From assembly GCF_009936035.1 (NCBI RefSeq), contig NZ_QWEO01000003.1:62001-126000 (forward strand): a stretch of DNA of 64,000 bases, read 5' to 3'. Each line of letters opens with the position of its first letter. Position 1 is the stretch's first letter. Positions 5,246 to 64,000 of the stretch are shown in pieces. Under the pieces are notes generated by a model, which was not told where the DNA came from, did no database searches, and worked only from the letters and a program-made list of their open reading frames with translations. This DNA comes from Neglectibacter sp. X58. GTDB lineage: Bacteria; Bacillota; Clostridia; Oscillospirales; Acutalibacteraceae. Made by a program: the position numbers and the translations under genes.

Positions 5246-6229
5246 TTAAGCCCATTTAAAAAAGGGCTTACAGGGTGTGGGACGCTCTCCCACGACTTTA
5301 CGCAAAATCCTGTGATAACCTGGCTCATCCTTCTCCGGCTGGGTGACAGCCTCCAAAAGGCCCGCCCGGATAAAGGCTTCTATGCGCCTTGCCACCCAGC
5401 CGTCGCCTATCCCCAGCCGGTATCTGCCCAGCACGCGCCCCACCACCACAGCCTCCTGGAATTCCCTGCCCTGAACCGCGATTTCCCGGGCAATAAAGGG
5501 GTCGTAAAACTCCTCCGGCACGCTTACCAGCCGGCCGTTCACCACCGCCCGCAGCGGCGCGTTTTCCTCCTGCAGCTCCCCCCAGCGGTTTTGGAGCATC
5601 CTGGCCCAGGCCGTGGAAAGCTTCCTCCCCTCCCCCGCCAGCCGCCCCCACTGATGCGGCTCCGCCTCCGCCCAGGACTGGTACGCCGTCAGCGTCCCCG
5701 CTTCCCACTCCCTGCATGGCGGCAGGGGCACGCAGGTGCATGAGAGGCTTTCCAGCCCCAAAGGCCGGAGCTGTTCCAAGAGCCAGCAGAGGCCGCAGGC
5801 TTCGTCCGGGCTTCCGCTGGCCCACACCCGGAAAGGCTCTCCCAGGGCAGCCCCCTCTAAAAGCCGCTTCAGGCTCTGCCGCCCGGTTTCCGCCATTGCC
5901 TGTGCCGCTTCCGCCCCTTCCGGGCAGGTTCCCAGAAGCTCTTTCAGCACCTGCTCCCGCTGGGGGCCTATGTCCTCTCCAGAAATGTCCCCCACGCTTT
6001 CGCACAGGGGGAAGCACAGCACGTCTCCAGGGCTTCCCTCCAGAGGCACAGCCTGTTCCCAGGCCCTGCGCTCTTGCTCCCGGGCCTGCTGTATTAGCGC
6101 ACGCTGTTCCGCTTTTGTCAGGCCGTCTCCCCCGATAATGCCTATAACGTGGCTTTCTGTCACGTCTTTGCGGGCCAGGGCGCATTTCAGGCTTCCGGCG
6201 GCGCTATCGCTGAACACAACCTCCATCAT
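5246..6229 (-). CDS. DUF1835-family protein
   Basis: A 327-residue protein resembling DUF1835 proteins. The N-terminus MMEVVFSDSAAGSLKCA and the segment EGSPGDVLCFPLCESVGDI are typical. A C-terminal region (about 190-320) contains the AWARMLQNRWGELQEENAPLR and FYDPFIA segments seen in the DUF3658 partner domain. The biochemical function of the family is not established. The start follows GAGGAGGG. The last dozen residues (ERPTPCKPFFKWA) appear to be encoded by a hairpin-rich repeat rather than by conserved protein sequence, so the true C-terminus may have been replaced. It is monocistronic and oriented away from the next gene. Confidence 0.8.
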   Translation of the reverse strand: MMEVVFSDSAAGSLKCALARKDVTESHVIGIIGGDGLTKAEQRALIQQAREQERRAWEQAVPLEGSPGDVLCFPLCESVGDISGEDIGPQREQVLKELLGTCPEGAEAAQAMAETGRQSLKRLLEGAALGEPFRVWASGSPDEACGLCWLLEQLRPLGLESLSCTCVPLPPCREWEAGTLTAYQSWAEAEPHQWGRLAGEGRKLSTAWARMLQNRWGELQEENAPLRAVVNGRLVSVPEEFYDPFIAREIAVQGREFQEAVVVGRVLGRYRLGIGDGWVARRIEAFIRAGLLEAVTQPEKDEPGYHRILRKVVGERPTPCKPFFKWA

Positions 6230-58094: not shown

Positions 58095-59340
58095 TTGACT
58101 GCAATAAAAATCCTGGCTCTTGACTTGGAAACCTTTTCAGATGTGGACTTGAAAAAATCCGGCGTGTACCCCTATGCAGAATCGCCTAGCTTTGAAATCC
58201 TGCTCCTGGGTTACAGCGTGAACGACGGCAAAATCCAAGTGGTCGATATCGCCCGCGGCGAGACTGTCCCGGACGAGGTGCTGGCAGCTTTGGCGGATAG
58301 CTCTGTGGAGAAATGGGCGTATAACGCACAGTTCGAGCGTGTCTGCTTGTCCGTCTGGCTCCGGCGAAACCATCCGCAGTACTTTCAGAGCTACAGCAGT
58401 CCAGAGGATACCGTTGGAAACTACCTGGACCCCTCATCCTGGAAATGCTCCCGCATTTGGGGCGCATATATGGGACTTCCCCTCTCTTTGAAAGGCATCG
58501 GTGCCGTGCTGAAACTGGATGAGCAGAAAATGGAGGAAGGCGCTGACCTTATCAAGTATTGTTGCTGATTTCTCTGCTATCGAAGCCAGGGTACTCAGCT
58601 TCCTTGCTGGGGAGCAATGGCGCATTGATGTGTTCAAGGATGGGAAAGACATTTACTGCGAAAGCGCAAGCAAAATGTTCCATATTCCTGTGGTCAAGAA
58701 TGGTATCAACGGCCACCTCCGGCAAAAGGGTAAAATTGCGGAACTGGCCCTCGGCTACGGCGGTTCAGTTGGCGCTTTGAAAGCGATGGGTGCGTTGGAA
58801 ATGGGGCTGGCAGAGGAGGAGCTTCAGCCGCTGGTGGATGCGTGGCGGCAGTCCAACCCGAACATCACTCGTTTCTGGTGGGATATCGATGCCGCTGTCA
58901 AAAAGGCGGTTTTATACAAGACCGCCACAGAAACCCACAGCTTTCGGATTTACTATAAGAGCGGAATGCTGTTTATCAATTTGCTCTCTGGTAGACGGCT
59001 GTGCTATGTCAAGCCCCGTATGGGTATCAACCAGTTTGGCAGCGACTCCGTGACCTACGAGGGTACAACTACGGGCAAGTGGGGGCGGATTGAAAGTTAT
59101 GGCCCAAAATTCGTAGAAAATATTGTCCAGGCGGTCAGCAGGGACATTCTCGCCTATGCTATGAAAACGCTCCGCCACTGTTTCATAGTCGGCCATGTCC
59201 ATGATGAGCTTATCATCGAGTGTAGCCCAGCCGTTTCCTTGGACGCTGTTTGTGAGCAGATGGGTAGAACGCCGCCTTGGATTAAAGGGCTGTTGCTTCG
59301 GGCGGATGGGTACGAGTGTGAATTTTATCAAAAACAATAA
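58095..59340 (+). pseudogene. Phage family-A DNA polymerase with internal deletion
   Basis: The first part (from TTG) encodes the 3'-5' exonuclease start (ILALDLETFSDVDL; WAYNAQFERVCL) up to LIKY. At about 58556 it jumps, with a frame change, to polymerase motif A (VADFSAIEARVLSFLAGE), then motif B (KIAELALGYGGSVGALKAMG) and motif C (VGHVHDELIIE). About 230 residues between exonuclease and palm are missing. The product cannot be a normal polymerase. A terminator follows. Confidence 0.88.
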
Positions 59341-59380: not shown

Positions 59381-59440
59381 TTATTGTTGTGTGTATTGAT
59401 TAGAAATGACAAGAAACAGCAGCAAATCGCAGCAAACCCA

Positions 59441-59469
59441 TTGCAAATTGCGCCGACATATGATATAAT
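59441..59469 (+). promoter_or_regulatory. Promoter of the restriction-modification operon
   Basis: TTGCAA, 17 bp, TATAAT, about 40 bp before the HTH gene. Confidence 0.85.
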
Positions 59470-59477
59470 ATAGAATG

Positions 59478-59493
59478 GTTTATTATAATAAAC
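59478..59493 (+). promoter_or_regulatory. 16-bp palindromic operator
   Basis: GTTTATTATAATAAAC is perfectly symmetric and lies at the expected transcription start, 8 bp after the -10 box. It probably binds a dimeric repressor; the adjacent small HTH protein is a candidate. Confidence 0.6.
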
Positions 59494-59509
59494 ACTCGGA
59501 GGTGCAGAG

Positions 59510-59704
59510 ATGGCAGATGTCACTAACGATAAATGGATAAACATTGATGAAGCTGCAAAATATCTGGGGGTCAAGCCTGGGACTATTCGTGATTGGATTA
59601 GAAAGGACAAAGGTATTCCAGCCCACAAGATAGGAAAACAGTGGAAATTCAAATGCTCCGAATTAGACGATTGGGTTGCAAGCGGAAAAAGCGCAATGGA
59701 ATGA
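59510..59704 (+). CDS. Excisionase-like HTH protein
   Basis: A 64-residue DNA-binding protein of the MerR/excisionase fold. WINIDEAAKYLGVKPGTIRDWIRKDKGIPAHKIGKQWKFKCSELDDWVASG is the whole helix-turn-helix plus wing. It is first in the operon with two methyltransferases, so a controller role (like C proteins) is likelier than excision. It differs from classical C proteins, which are XRE-like. The start follows CGGAGGTGC. Confidence 0.85.
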   Translation: MADVTNDKWINIDEAAKYLGVKPGTIRDWIRKDKGIPAHKIGKQWKFKCSELDDWVASGKSAME

Positions 59705-59743
59705 ATGGCGTTGTATCTAACTCGAGAAGGAATGGTATGTAGC

Positions 59744-60760
59744 ATGATTCGATACGCGGAGTTTTGTACAGGAGTTGGCGGTTTCCGACTTGGGATAGAG
59801 GCATCCGGGTTAAGGGCTGCATCCGTCTATACAAACGAAATTGACAACAATTGTGAAAAGACTTATAAGAAGAACTTCGGGCTTGGCTTTGACTCCAAGG
59901 ATATTTTTGAGGTTGATCCATCTGCTTTGCCTGATTTTGATATGCTGTGCGCAGGCTTTCCATGCCAGCCATTCTCAGTTGCGGGAAAAGAACTCGGATT
60001 CAGGGATTCACGAGGAACAATCTTTTTTAAGCTGCTATCCGTGATTGAAACGAAAAAGCCGCAAATAGTTTTTTTAGAGAATGTTCCAAACTTGGTGAGA
60101 CATGACAAAGGTAGAACATTTCGAGTCATAACTGAAAAGCTGACGGATGCGGGATATAGCATATCTTCTGCCATATTGGATAGTGCATACTTTGGAATTC
60201 CTCAAAGTCGCTCCCGTATCTATATCGTGGGATTGCGTAAGGATATCTACGGGGAATGTTTAGTTGCGTTCACGGAGAAACGAACAGAAAAAACATCGTT
60301 TCGATCTTTTATTATTCATGGTGATCGTTCTATTCCTGTCACGAAGAGATGGGATGAGTATATTGACTACTATTTGGGAATCAAGACCATAGAGGAGATG
60401 TCGTTTGAGGTTCCGCGAACAAGGAAGGCATTGGAGCGTATCGCAACTAATTGTGACCTTAACGATTGCGTTTTTCAGGTGAGGTCAAGTGGCGTAAGAG
60501 CATTATCTATTGACAGTCCTCTGCCTACTCTTACAGTCTTGAACTCAGGTGGAGGTGCGCATATTCCGATTCTTTCAAAAGAACGTCGGCACTTGAGCGT
60601 TAACGAAATGAAAAGAGTGATGGGATTCCCTGACGATTATGATTTTAGTGCGGTTTCTCGAACGGATGCCGCTAAACAATTAGCCAACGCTGTTTGCCCA
60701 CCTGTAATTGCGTCCGTGTTCAGGGACATTATAGCAGCAATTGGTTACTGGGAGGAGTAA
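59744..60760 (+). CDS. C5-cytosine DNA methyltransferase 1
   Basis: A 338-residue enzyme that methylates cytosine at carbon 5 in a specific DNA site. Motif I is FCTGVGGFRLGIE, the catalytic motif IV GFPCQPFS, motif VI FLENVP, motif VIII QSRSRIYIVG and motif X QLANAVCPPV. The target-recognition part lies at about 190-270. The ATG chosen begins MIRYAEF as in relatives; earlier in-frame ATGs at 59705 and 59732 are possible. Codons are AT-rich compared with core genes. Confidence 0.92.
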   Translation: MIRYAEFCTGVGGFRLGIEASGLRAASVYTNEIDNNCEKTYKKNFGLGFDSKDIFEVDPSALPDFDMLCAGFPCQPFSVAGKELGFRDSRGTIFFKLLSVIETKKPQIVFLENVPNLVRHDKGRTFRVITEKLTDAGYSISSAILDSAYFGIPQSRSRIYIVGLRKDIYGECLVAFTEKRTEKTSFRSFIIHGDRSIPVTKRWDEYIDYYLGIKTIEEMSFEVPRTRKALERIATNCDLNDCVFQVRSSGVRALSIDSPLPTLTVLNSGGGAHIPILSKERRHLSVNEMKRVMGFPDDYDFSAVSRTDAAKQLANAVCPPVIASVFRDIIAAIGYWEE

Positions 60761-60765
60761 CTGGT

Positions 60766-61815
60766 TTGAGCAAAAAGAACACGAATATTTATCTTCAGAG
60801 ACTGAATTCATTCAGCAAAAAAGTTGAGTATAAATATAACTGCATCAGTCTGTTCAGTGGTGGCGGTGGTCTTGATCTCGGCGCTCATTTTGCTGGGTTT
60901 AAGACGCTCTTAGTGAGCGACATTATTCCATCCTATACGGAAACAATAAAAACAAATCTGCCTCATGTTTCTGTATATAACGATGATGCAATGGATTTGA
61001 CTGCTGAAAAAATCAGAGGCCTGGCTAAAATTAATGGTGATGTAGACCTGATTATTGCCGGGCCACCCTGCCAAGCTTTTAGCATTATGGGAAAAAGGCA
61101 ATCCCTGGATGATCCAAGAGGTAGATTGACAATAAAGTATTTTGAACTTGTTTCCGGCTTAAAACCGAAGGTGTTTCTGTTTGAAAATGTTCCTGGTCTG
61201 ATGACTGTAAACCACGGAGAGGATTTTAATAATCTTTTGGAGTTTATCGAAAACGAAACAAACTATCAACTGTATAGAACCAAGTTAAATGCATCCGACT
61301 TTGGTATTCCGCAAGAAAGGGAGCGGATTTTTATTGTTGGCTTTAGACCTGACATATCATGTGAATCATTTTCTTTTCCAACAAACGCAACCGGATCTTT
61401 ACATGAGCAACTTCCTGATAAAATGCCAAGTAAATTTGCATTGGAAAGTGTAGAGGGCTTACCCAATCAAGTCATAAGAGTTCATACAGAGGCTGTAAGA
61501 AAGCGTTTTGAGGCAGTCCCTCAAGGGGGCAGGGATCGGGGTTCCTACTCAGACAGACTTAGACCGGATATGCCATCGGGTACGGTAATGATTGGTTCCT
61601 CCGCAGGAGGAGCAAGACCGTTTATTCATCCATATGAGCCAAGGGCGCTGACCGTAAGAGAAACTGCGCGCCTGCAGAGCTTTCCTGATTGGTATGAGTT
61701 TTCTGGCTCAAGGACTGAGCAGTATAGACAGGTAGGAAATGCTGTGCCGCCTTTATTAGCGTATGAAATACTATCGGCGATAAAAAAAGTGTTGGAGGGG
61801 AAAAATGTATCCTAA
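60766..61815 (+). CDS. C5-cytosine DNA methyltransferase 2
   Basis: A 349-residue enzyme. Motif I is LFSGGGGLDLGAHFAG, IV AGPPCQAFS, VI FENVPG, VIII QERERIFIVG, X YRQVGNAVPPLLA. It differs clearly from methyltransferase 1, so the two probably methylate different strands of an asymmetric site, as in systems with two C5 enzymes. The start is TTG after GGGAGGAG, 5 bp beyond the stop of the first gene. Its end overlaps the next gene by 11 bp. Confidence 0.92.
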   Translation: MSKKNTNIYLQRLNSFSKKVEYKYNCISLFSGGGGLDLGAHFAGFKTLLVSDIIPSYTETIKTNLPHVSVYNDDAMDLTAEKIRGLAKINGDVDLIIAGPPCQAFSIMGKRQSLDDPRGRLTIKYFELVSGLKPKVFLFENVPGLMTVNHGEDFNNLLEFIENETNYQLYRTKLNASDFGIPQERERIFIVGFRPDISCESFSFPTNATGSLHEQLPDKMPSKFALESVEGLPNQVIRVHTEAVRKRFEAVPQGGRDRGSYSDRLRPDMPSGTVMIGSSAGGARPFIHPYEPRALTVRETARLQSFPDWYEFSGSRTEQYRQVGNAVPPLLAYEILSAIKKVLEGKNVS

Positions 61816-62716
61816 TATTCCATATGAAGGTTTATCGTGGCCAATTACTCAACACGCCGGTGTCCTTAAAGTCGAGGTATTTGACGGCTTACTGAATGCT
61901 TGTCTCCTATGCAAAGGAGATACTGTAGATGCGGAGAAAATAAATGGATACCTCGTTAATAACGGAATCCTTACAGCCAATGTTCGGGCGGATAGCAATC
62001 AAGTCGATGCTTGGAGAGACTATCAGCAGATTTTGAGTGAGTTTGGTCTCATATACTCTACCAGGCTAAGTAAGGTGCTTACACTTACGCCCATAGCAAT
62101 GGCCTATTTGAACCACAGCCTTTCTTACTCCGAATTGATTACATTACAATTGTTAAGATATCAGTACCCGAATGGGCATAAGTCCCAACTAAGCCCATCC
62201 TTGATGCAAAGTTATGGTAAAAACTTTAACTATGAATCTTTCACGGAGTTGCAGGCACATTACAACATACAAGTAAGACCAGCAGTACTGATATGGAAAA
62301 TTCTATATAAACTGTGGGAGAGTGGCGAACAGCCAATATTGTCATTGAATGAAATGCAGGGCTATGCAGTACGGTGTACGGCCATGTCAGACTATTTTTC
62401 TTGCGCTGAAAGCATCATAGAATCTCGGCATGATGGTCAACAGCTTCAGCCATTAACAAGAGCCAGAAGAAATATGGCTGATTGGATGAAATTGCTTTCA
62501 CAAACACTGCTTTTTAATGTCAGCGGGGATGGAAATACCATAGCATTATCCCCATATTCGATAAAGGAAAGAAAAGCTGTAGATTATGTTTGTAGCCGTC
62601 TTTCCGATCCGTTTTCTTTTTGGGAGTACAAGGAAGATAACTACAAACAGGATTGGTTCGATTTTTATGGGGACTACGATAATAGCATCGAATACATCCT
62701 TAAGGAAAGTCAATAA
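61805..62716 (+). CDS. Unknown protein of the restriction-modification operon
   Basis: A 303-residue protein starting 11 bp inside the methyltransferase gene. I do not recognise a domain. It opens YPNIPYEGLSWPITQHAGVL and includes an apparent winged-helix-like part (INGYLVNNGILTANVRADSNQVDAW). Its length and place between two C5 methyltransferases and a large partner recall YdiR of BsuMI (from memory, not tested). It may be a restriction subunit or a specificity factor. The ribosome binding site is GGAGGGG within the previous gene. Confidence 0.75.
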   Translation: MYPNIPYEGLSWPITQHAGVLKVEVFDGLLNACLLCKGDTVDAEKINGYLVNNGILTANVRADSNQVDAWRDYQQILSEFGLIYSTRLSKVLTLTPIAMAYLNHSLSYSELITLQLLRYQYPNGHKSQLSPSLMQSYGKNFNYESFTELQAHYNIQVRPAVLIWKILYKLWESGEQPILSLNEMQGYAVRCTAMSDYFSCAESIIESRHDGQQLQPLTRARRNMADWMKLLSQTLLFNVSGDGNTIALSPYSIKERKAVDYVCSRLSDPFSFWEYKEDNYKQDWFDFYGDYDNSIEYILKESQ

Positions 62717-62730
62717 AGGGGGATTGAATT

Positions 62731-64000
62731 ATGCCACAGGAATCAATGATATATGAACAGGCGGCAAATTTGGTGATGGAATATCCTAATACCCATACCG
62801 TCAAGTTTGAAACCTCTAAGGATGAAATCGTTAGTTTGCTTAACGGCTTTAAAGAGAAATTTGCCCCGGAAGTCCTAAAATCCTTAAGTGACAATGAGTT
62901 GCTTGGCTATCTTTTCTTAACTGTAGATGGCAATAATGACAGCCTATGCTATCATTTGGAGTTTAATCCGAAACTGAAAAGGACGTTCGGAAGCATTTCG
63001 GGTGGCTCGTCCTTTAAGTTCGGTCTCTTCCAGCGTCAAGAAGATGGAACATGGACTACTGGCGCTCCAAAGACACCACAAGTTCTTTCAGAGACAGAAG
63101 CATTGCAGCTTGGCAAGACAATCCGTGACAATCTTGTAAATGCTTGTGAGATGATTCAATCTCAAACGCTTAATTCTGTCGAAGATTATGAAAAGCTGGA
63201 TGATGACTTAAATGCATTGATGGGGAAATTCGCTTCCTACGCATGGGTACAGAAATATTTTCACATGATTTTTCCTGATAAGTTTATCGGTTGGTATGTA
63301 ACCGACTGGCTTAAGCATATTCTGTTTGGGTTTGGGATAAATCCAAGCGAAAAATACTATGGAATGAACGGACAGCTTACTCTTATCAAAAAGAGGACAA
63401 GCTATATGTCGCCCAACTTCCAAGATATCTGCTATGCGATGTTTGGAGAAATACGCCATTTTTACAGATTGGGATCATCTGATGAGTCTGAACACTACGC
63501 CGAAAAATGGAAGGAAAAGGGCATTATTGCTATAGGGTGGAAAGAAACCGGCGACCTACTTAATTATATTAAAAATGGATCTCTTGACAGAGATAAGGTG
63601 TCAGAGGCTTTATTGGCGCATTACTATCATAGCGACAAAAAGACGGCATCACGAAAAGCGGGAGAAATGAAATCTTTCTATGAAACATCCTCCTCTTCCG
63701 TTATAACCGTGATGGATGGCTCTCAATTGATAGCTTTTGTTGATGGCCTGTCCCCGTATTTCTATGATGTGAGCGAGAATATGGCGCATCAAAAATCTGG
63801 AGTTTGGCATTCCTCATTTGATGAATCGGATAGACTCCCGGAGGATGAAGGATACTTAACGACCTGTTACGAGATAAAAGAGCCTGAAAATCTTCTGTTC
63901 TTGTATAAAAAGTATTACTGTTCGAACAAATCAGATGGTTCTGCAACTACGATTGACGAGTGTATCCAAATAAAATTTAACACGGGATATCAGTCATCTT
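62731..64000 (+). CDS. Large restriction-type protein, partial at the window end
   Basis: At least 423 residues, open at the right edge. The start ATG after AAAGGGGG encodes MPQESMIYEQAANLVMEYP. A central region (KYFHMIFPDKFIGWYVTDWLKHILFGFG) and then HYAEKWKEKGIIAIGWKETGDLLNYIK resemble the N-terminal DNA-binding parts of McrB-like and related AAA/GTPase restriction proteins. A P-loop, if present, would lie beyond the window. It is 14 bp after the previous gene and in the same operon. Confidence 0.7.
   Translation, partial: MPQESMIYEQAANLVMEYPNTHTVKFETSKDEIVSLLNGFKEKFAPEVLKSLSDNELLGYLFLTVDGNNDSLCYHLEFNPKLKRTFGSISGGSSFKFGLFQRQEDGTWTTGAPKTPQVLSETEALQLGKTIRDNLVNACEMIQSQTLNSVEDYEKLDDDLNALMGKFASYAWVQKYFHMIFPDKFIGWYVTDWLKHILFGFGINPSEKYYGMNGQLTLIKKRTSYMSPNFQDICYAMFGEIRHFYRLGSSDESEHYAEKWKEKGIIAIGWKETGDLLNYIKNGSLDRDKVSEALLAHYYHSDKKTASRKAGEMKSFYETSSSSVITVMDGSQLIAFVDGLSPYFYDVSENMAHQKSGVWHSSFDESDRLPEDEGYLTTCYEIKEPENLLFLYKKYYCSNKSDGSATTIDECIQIKFNTGYQSS

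Follow-up and report, generated by a model that had tools for sequence, protein, structure and literature searches.

The closest described relatives of the system reported here are restriction-modification (R-M) systems in which cytosine C5 methyltransferases stand beside restriction subunits resembling McrB and McrC. LlaJI, from the Lactococcus plasmid pNP40, is described by O'Driscoll 2006 (PMC1459862) as four genes, comprising two 5-methylcytosine (5mC) methyltransferases for an asymmetric site, a specificity subunit R1 that reads the site itself, and a nuclease subunit R2. In the same account BsuMI and LlaI appear as cassettes of three restriction open reading frames (ORFs), with short McrB-like subunits of 343 and 337 residues. 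PcaI of Pectobacterium is presented as an R-M system with one methyltransferase, two restriction proteins and an McrBC-like nuclease acting on unmethylated DNA, and the passages describing it mention no separate recognition gene (PMC8989522). Fusions of an EVE domain to McrB are reported as common and are regarded there as modification-dependent (PMC7641849), and a census of McrBC systems notes McrB GTPases beside methyltransferases (PMC11090510). Here we analysed a 64,000-nucleotide window of the Neglectibacter sp. X58 genome (G000:C113:62001-126000; contig NZ_QWEO01000003.1) and the contig beyond its end, which we call L004 (window position = L004 + 57999). The window ends within an operon of the LlaJI type that also encodes a separate 303-residue protein, S303. 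What is new, in our best reading of a structural model, is that S303 is a detached BpuJI-type recognition half inside a LlaJI-like operon; in the open-access papers searched, such a protein is nowhere described together with McrB and McrC.

S303, a probable recognition half without a nuclease

The cluster comprises eight genes, all on the + strand, in the order HTH-M1-M2-S303-McrB-McrC-hamA-hamB. M1 (59744..60760 from its likely start; frame open from 59705) and M2 (60766..61815 from a likely TTG start; frame open from 60694) are C5-cytosine DNA methyltransferases by PF00145 (E = 5.3e-75 and 9e-70), and M1 has the motifs PCQ, ENV and QSRSR. S303 lies at 61805..62716. The 755-residue McrB-like AAA+ protein (AAA_5, E = 3.8e-9; McrB-like chains in PDB match it at 8.8e-17) starts at 62731 and runs out of the window (window part 62731..64000) to L004 6999. 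A sequence-only reading of the window had proposed an operon of LlaJI/BsuMI layout, with a helix-turn-helix (HTH) gene, two C5 methyltransferases, a 303-residue protein and a large McrB-like protein at tight gaps or overlaps, and the coordinates and Pfam matches bear this out. It had also predicted a P-loop and an McrC/PD-(D/E)XK gene beyond position 64000, and had tied its fate to an AAA/GTPase and a nuclease lying downstream. Both genes are there: McrB has Walker A (GAPGTGKS) at residue 432, with EEINR and MNSAD, and the next gene (L004 7014-8447) encodes a 477-residue McrC-like nuclease (RE_LlaJI, PF09563, E = 5.5e-49) carrying PDLISIRDGQFIIFDAK (PD...DAK). The succession of two C5 methyltransferases, McrB-like AAA+ protein and PF09563 nuclease supports the proposed layout. 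That reading had not named the identity of the 303-residue protein, the EVE-like domain of McrB or, beyond the window, the Hachiman genes hamA and hamB, by which the cluster extends past McrC.

The intergenic gaps are 5 bp (M1-M2), 14 bp (S303-McrB), 14 bp (McrB-McrC) and 21 bp (McrC-hamA), with overlaps of 11 bp (M2-S303) and 1 bp (hamA-hamB); judged from this spacing, HTH to hamB is likely one operon. By eye, Shine-Dalgarno-like stretches accompany the genes of the cluster.

Against Pfam, S303 gives a sub-threshold match to RE_AlwI (E = 0.0015) and nothing else. Its homologues are the N-terminal halves of restriction enzymes of about 500 residues, which come from two-gene systems made up of an M2-like methyltransferase and an enzyme, R. 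These fused enzymes (about 490-510 residues) have an S303-like N-terminus and a PD-(D/E)XK C-terminus (DPxSxDL...FExKT); in the alignment S303 ends ahead of the PD-(D/E)XK part, so the nuclease is absent, and the end point is nearly identical across the six aligned stand-alone rows. On a Nostoc plasmid, a C5 methyltransferase is followed by a 484-residue protein that shares 35-37% identity with S303 in its first part.

We read the structure of S303 through an AlphaFold2 model of a fused relative, L015, which is 56% identical to S303 over its region (mean predicted local distance difference test score, pLDDT, 77.9). Residues 1-292 of this model match the recognition domain of BpuJI (2vla; Z = 21.0, root-mean-square deviation (rmsd) 3.0, 257/280 residues), and residues 6-303 match Nt.BspD6I (6qnz; Z = 20.3, rmsd 3.4, 239 residues), which Foldseek alone ranks first (E = 1e-7). 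Over residues 368-481 the model matches chains of PD-(D/E)XK type, XisH among them (2okf; Z = 9.1, rmsd 3.1, 113 residues). The type IIS enzyme BpuJI reads an asymmetric site. S303 would thus share with BpuJI, Nt.BspD6I and AlwI-type enzymes a recognition fold, seen via L015, and the weak resemblance to RE_AlwI, but it lacks their nuclease domain and is encoded beside McrBC-like subunits. The defence protein BrxA has likewise been likened to the BpuJI recognition domain in a published description (PMC9240713), but it is part of BREX and not of an McrB/McrC operon.

Pattern-based scans of viral contigs (4 loci) and genome contigs (20 loci), with one locus found later via McrC (L082), gave seven loci with a stand-alone S303: our own (also present as L007 and L069, with the same operon bases), L011, L012, L013, L014, L017 (viral L008 and L100 hold the same bases) and L082. 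The fused form was found at 17 loci (L006, L009, L010, L015, L016, L018-L021 and L023-L030), or 18 with L022; in this set L020 is spread over two frames, a contig end truncates L026, and L027 and L028 have identical genes. Searches for S303 found it in one of 150 genomes of the host family and one of 398 of the host phylum, in each case our own genome only. All seven stand-alone loci carry M1, M2, an S303 with an intact frame, the McrB N-terminal region and an McrC-like gene. None of the 18 fused-form loci has M1 or McrB within the sequence covered (some flanks are short); the fused form consists of one M2-like C5 methyltransferase, to which M2 is 46-63% identical, and the fused enzyme.

Trees were built for the S303/R N-termini and for M2, each from 24 rows of which six were stand-alone (L082 was left out). 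In both, the stand-alone rows form one group (100/99) nested among fused rows, with fused L015, L016, L018 and L019 (a long branch) as nearest outgroups. The trees point to a single origin of the stand-alone form inside the fused form, most simply explained by one loss of the nuclease when M2-S303 joined M1 and an McrBC-like machine. The ratio of nonsynonymous to synonymous divergence (dN/dS) of S303 is 0.043 against L011 and 0.050 against L012, and that of M1 and M2 is 0.045 to 0.107. Since the value for S303 is near 0.05, these comparisons indicate that it is not decaying.

Two loci add further arrangements. At L022 (8992-12221) an S303-like half is joined to GmrSD_N (DUF262) and followed by an AAA_15/DUF3696 ATPase gene, an arrangement that, from its sequence, would pair this reader with an effector of a third type. 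At L008, in Succiniclasticum, a Vsr mismatch endonuclease gene (5481-5879) lies ahead of the M1-M2-S303-McrB-McrC operon, and this fits C5 methylation.

The McrB N-terminal region and exchange of halves

The N-terminal region of McrB (residues 1 to about 400; model pLDDT 87.1) is mostly helical over residues 1-240. Residues 242-402 match EVE/YTH folds, among them VcaM4I (Z = 9.7, rmsd 3.5, 124 residues) and many YTH chains (Z = 7.8-8.8), although Foldseek alone gave nothing significant for the region (best E = 0.12, VcaM4I). We regard this as a moderate fold match to an EVE/YTH-like domain, possibly a modified-base reader. VcaM4I is described as flipping 5mC into a pocket formed by P24, W82 and Y130 (PMC7897488). 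McrB residues W270, Y317 and W359 are invariant in an alignment that includes relatives from three McrBC pairs (L055-L057), near which no C5 methyltransferase relative was seen in the sequence covered; by conservation, these three are candidates for the aromatic residues of the EVE-like pocket. We found no relatives of the L055 McrB region in viral contigs. Specificity in LlaJI lies in a B3-like N-terminal domain of the McrB-like subunit; the EVE/YTH match of our McrB model covers residues 242-402.

The genome contains a second LlaJI-type operon, on contig C10 (L036 8566-14243), with an HTH paralogue, two other C5 methyltransferases that share 50% identity, an McrB that differs in its N-terminal region, and McrC, but no S303. 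Its McrB shares 86% identity with that of the stand-alone locus L012 in the AAA part alone (residues 381-716), and its McrC is 85% identical to that of L012; the McrB N-terminal region of L012 is 84% identical to our own. Nonsynonymous divergence (dN) between our locus and L012 is 0.05-0.09 for M1, M2, S303 and the McrB N-terminal region, and rises to 0.23 in the AAA part and 0.28 in McrC. Against L011, dN is 0.04 (AAA) and 0.09 (McrC). We rejected synonymous divergence (dS) along the operon as a marker, by itself, of the exchange point, because the AAA part (dS 2.3) and McrC (saturated) are near or beyond saturation against L011 too. L013 and L014 keep the N-terminal region, with diverged AAA parts and a PF10117-type McrC. 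The alignments of L012 and L013 place a break within McrB, before Walker A, and from this pattern it follows that the recognition half (M1, M2, S303 and the McrB N-terminal region) and the motor half (AAA and McrC) can apparently move apart. This suggests that McrBC-like machines are built from exchangeable parts.

A further arrangement occurs in four viral loci, L065-L068, whose McrB-like proteins (935-1028 residues) have a head of about 190 or 225 residues, then the EVE-like-bearing region (44-46% identical to residues 1-400 of our McrB), then the AAA part. The L065 head recurs (65% identical) in L071 before the AAA part, with no match to our McrB 1-400 region. In our form McrB has no such head and the gene immediately before it encodes S303, so S303 may take the head's position. 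The heads of L065, L066 and L071 showed no link to the S303 profile, in a weak comparison of three similar rows. At L075 (2696-4048) a separate 450-residue protein with, by eye, an Mrr-like C-terminus (EVDVLF...QCKN) lies between the methyltransferases and McrB, and a similar protein precedes McrB at the contig end of L078 (1-1344). The LlaJI-type operons at L058, L062 and L104 have an N6-type plus a C5-type methyltransferase and not two C5 enzymes.

The proposed system and its alternatives

From the gene order, the protein families, the absence of the nuclease, the single origin of the stand-alone S303, the constraint on it and the exchange of halves, all of which come from sequence or model, we put a probability of about 0.66 on a LlaJI-like, motor-driven R-M operon that has its specificity domain on a protein of its own, S303. 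The steps of binding, assembly, translocation, cleavage, control and co-transcription, and the link to HamAB, are those we infer. M1 and M2 would methylate cytosines in the target site or sites of the host; S303, with a BpuJI/BspD6I-type winged-helix recognition fold and no nuclease, would bind the unmethylated site and recruit the McrB-like AAA+ GTPase through the McrB N-terminal region; McrB would then translocate and McrC would cut. The EVE/YTH-like domain might either test whether a flipped cytosine is methylated or extend recognition to modified phage DNA. HTH would autoregulate the operon at CAAA repeats over its promoter, and HamAB, probably on the same transcript, would sense damaged DNA and form a second line behind restriction breaks.

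The system shares with LlaJI two C5 methyltransferases with McrB-like and McrC-like subunits in one operon and an RE_LlaJI nuclease. It differs in the separate S303 gene ahead of McrB, in the EVE-like N-terminal region of McrB, and in having HTH in first and HamAB in last place. Like BsuMI and LlaI it has three restriction-side ORFs (here S303, McrB and McrC), but its McrB-like subunit has 755 residues and includes an N-terminal region; the three-ORF cassettes may represent an earlier instance of subunit detachment. Should S303 do the aiming, exchange of one small, separately encoded protein could redirect McrBC-like machines, comparable to HsdS swaps in type I systems. The family offers natural comparisons of the states before (fused enzyme) and after (detached reader), and natural hybrids at the junction just before Walker A, which make discrimination of sequence versus methylation by these machines directly testable. 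An EVE-like domain inside an R-M system would also be a test case for a 5mC reader in self-recognition. As a tentative and rather unlikely extension, we can picture a two-reader machine and HamAB on one transcript, in which S303 would read the sequence, the EVE-like domain would flip the target cytosine and read its methylation (as a self veto or a switch to modified phage DNA), and the breaks would feed HamAB.

Several points weigh against this picture. Because a PDB sequence search with the S303/R profile gave no real match (best E = 0.19), the link to BpuJI rests on the model, and the similarity is a fold match of the relative L015, not of S303 itself. The counts of 7/7 and 0/18 describe samples within reach of pattern-based scans. 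In model searches for the C5 type, the two-gene relatives show one C5 methyltransferase, which leaves the need for M1 unexplained. By analogy with the McrB-like subunit of LlaJI, the McrB N-terminal region could itself read the site. As to control, the CAAA steps are not above chance in two of the five upstream regions (equalled in 242 shuffles for C103 and 93 for L062), and L017 has neither kind of small HTH gene. HamAB follows one of the seven stand-alone loci, our own copy; at L011 and L014 the sequence after McrC extends only 460 and 1,267 bases. The link of HamAB to S303 is not conserved, and we rejected the idea that the S303 system always comes with it.

An alternative that we find rather doubtful is that the operon has two specificities, M1 being paired with a reader in the McrB N-terminal region and M2 with S303, so that DNA missing either mark is restricted. 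The fused relatives, with one M2-like methyltransferase and no M1, fit this idea, since M2 and a nuclease-bearing S303 were then probably once a complete set, as does the occurrence of M1 and the McrB N-terminal region, among these loci, only with the stand-alone form. The region, however, is also found with other C5 methyltransferase pairs and with fused heads, and in the three McrBC pairs L055-L057, which show no C5 methyltransferase relative in the sequence covered; it therefore looks unlike a site-specific reader tied to M1.

It is improbable that the machine is a modification-dependent (type IV) McrBC, with cutting of modified phage DNA triggered by the EVE-like domain and with M1, M2 and S303 as a separate marking or guarding module. 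The fold match of McrB residues 242-402 to VcaM4I and the relatives of the region in the three McrBC pairs point in that direction, and EVE-McrB is a common modification-dependent architecture (PMC7641849). But the two methyltransferases are present in each of the seven stand-alone-S303 loci, so that, unlike a type IV McrBC, this operon contains cognate enzymes in M1 and M2, and the McrBC-like nucleases of LlaJI and PcaI are described as acting on unmethylated DNA (PMC1459862; PMC8989522).

S303 is also quite unlikely to be a decaying restriction-enzyme remnant beside an McrB N-terminal region that alone recognises the site, as R1 is reported to do in LlaJI (PMC1459862), for although it does lack the nuclease, its frame is intact at 7/7 loci, its dN/dS is 0.04-0.05, it ends at a near-identical point in six aligned rows, and it has one origin.

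The leading HTH gene, Hachiman and the surroundings

The proposed controller of the S303 operon is a 64-residue HTH_17/excisionase-family DNA-binding protein encoded at 59510..59704 (+ strand; HTH_17, E = 7.7e-17; excisionase model, 2.2e-14). It scores 61.4 bits against the MADS1 model, below that model's 80-bit cut-off. Ahead of it lies a candidate promoter and operator (59423..59469, + strand), in which CAAA direct repeats at 59423, 59433 and 59444 run into TTGCAA-17-TATAAT at 59441-59469 (L004 1442-1470); the promoter-like site has a TG preceding the second hexamer and scores 10 of 12 bases. The CAAA triplet at 10/11-bp steps was equalled in 0 of 500 dinucleotide shuffles of our own upstream region, and steps of about 10 bp exceed chance in three of the five upstream regions (own 0, C10 1 and L011 0 of 500 shuffles). 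As the motif was picked after viewing the alignment, we treat the repeats as a lead. A TTG-17-TATxxT promoter-like site is present in 5/5 upstream regions examined.

HTH paralogues head three R-M operons of this genome: this one, the LlaJI-type operon of C10 and a type I operon of C103. The last (L037 6632-13915; G000:C103) is led by a paralogue 76% identical to HTH and encodes HsdM, Methylase_S and HSDR_N by Pfam; AAACATCA recurs ahead of its promoter. The idea that HTH is dedicated to the S303 system was rejected, since a paralogue leads a type I R-M operon. Among 38 viral McrC loci, several without upstream DNA, an HTH_17 relative lies upstream of McrC in nine (L069, L070, L072, L076, L077, L079, L080, L103 and L104; L069 repeats our own locus, and L079 and L080 hold a single operon), and a small HTH of another kind (HTH_26) in nine more (L071, L075, L082, L084, L087, L090, L091, L092 and L105). 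At the stand-alone-S303 loci, an HTH_17-type gene precedes M1 in our own and L011, and a gene related to the other small kind occurs in L012 and L082 (HTH_26 by Pfam in both), L013 (36% identity) and L014 (55% identity). A small HTH gene in first position is thus common and is filled by two families, and on sequence grounds a role as operon controller is plausible.

At the far end of the cluster, hamA (L004 8469-9941, + strand) encodes 490 residues (HamA Pfam, 5.6e-36; PADLOC PDLC00164, 5e-199) and hamB (L004 9941-12562, + strand) encodes 873 (a DEAD helicase by Pfam; PADLOC PDLC00190, E = 0). The PADLOC models cover both proteins nearly full length, and the genes are adjacent as in Hachiman, which is described as a helicase-nuclease pair whose nuclease is freed by DNA damage (PMC12278908). 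Two loci without S303 have related genes after McrC–L071 encodes a 425-residue protein 65% identical to HamA, with no HamB found, and L070 (7470-8597) encodes one that matches only residues 1-168 of the 490-residue HamA, at 30% identity. The N-terminal extension of HamA may be a shared module. By eye, an ATPase-like gene follows the HamA-like gene of L070.

Directly after hamB is a terminator-like site (L004 12581-12610) with a 13-pair stem and a run of T, by stem length the strongest found in a pattern scan of L004 1300-13200. This interval holds 10 terminator-like sites versus 9.2 in shuffles (standard deviation 3.0) and 33 promoter-like sites versus 25.8 (standard deviation 5.3), in both cases little excess. 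One promoter-like site, inside hamA, scores 11 of 12 bases and may be the start of a shorter transcript.

Directly upstream of the operon is a phage-type DNA polymerase A gene (58095-59340; Pfam for 58519-59337), which is probably broken, because it is split over two overlapping frames. At L082 the operon is followed by DUF2800 and Enc34-type single-stranded-DNA-binding genes, with look-alikes (by eye) near several other loci. These phage-type neighbours suggest a defence hotspot in one prophage family. Shortly downstream of our operon is a remnant (L004 13284-13838) with a DUF4368 domain, presumably the C-terminal part of a serine recombinase. A protein of about 617-650 residues (lengths by eye) follows McrC in many loci, and its copy in L082 (7813-9666) has a weak IrrE/Peptidase_M78 match.

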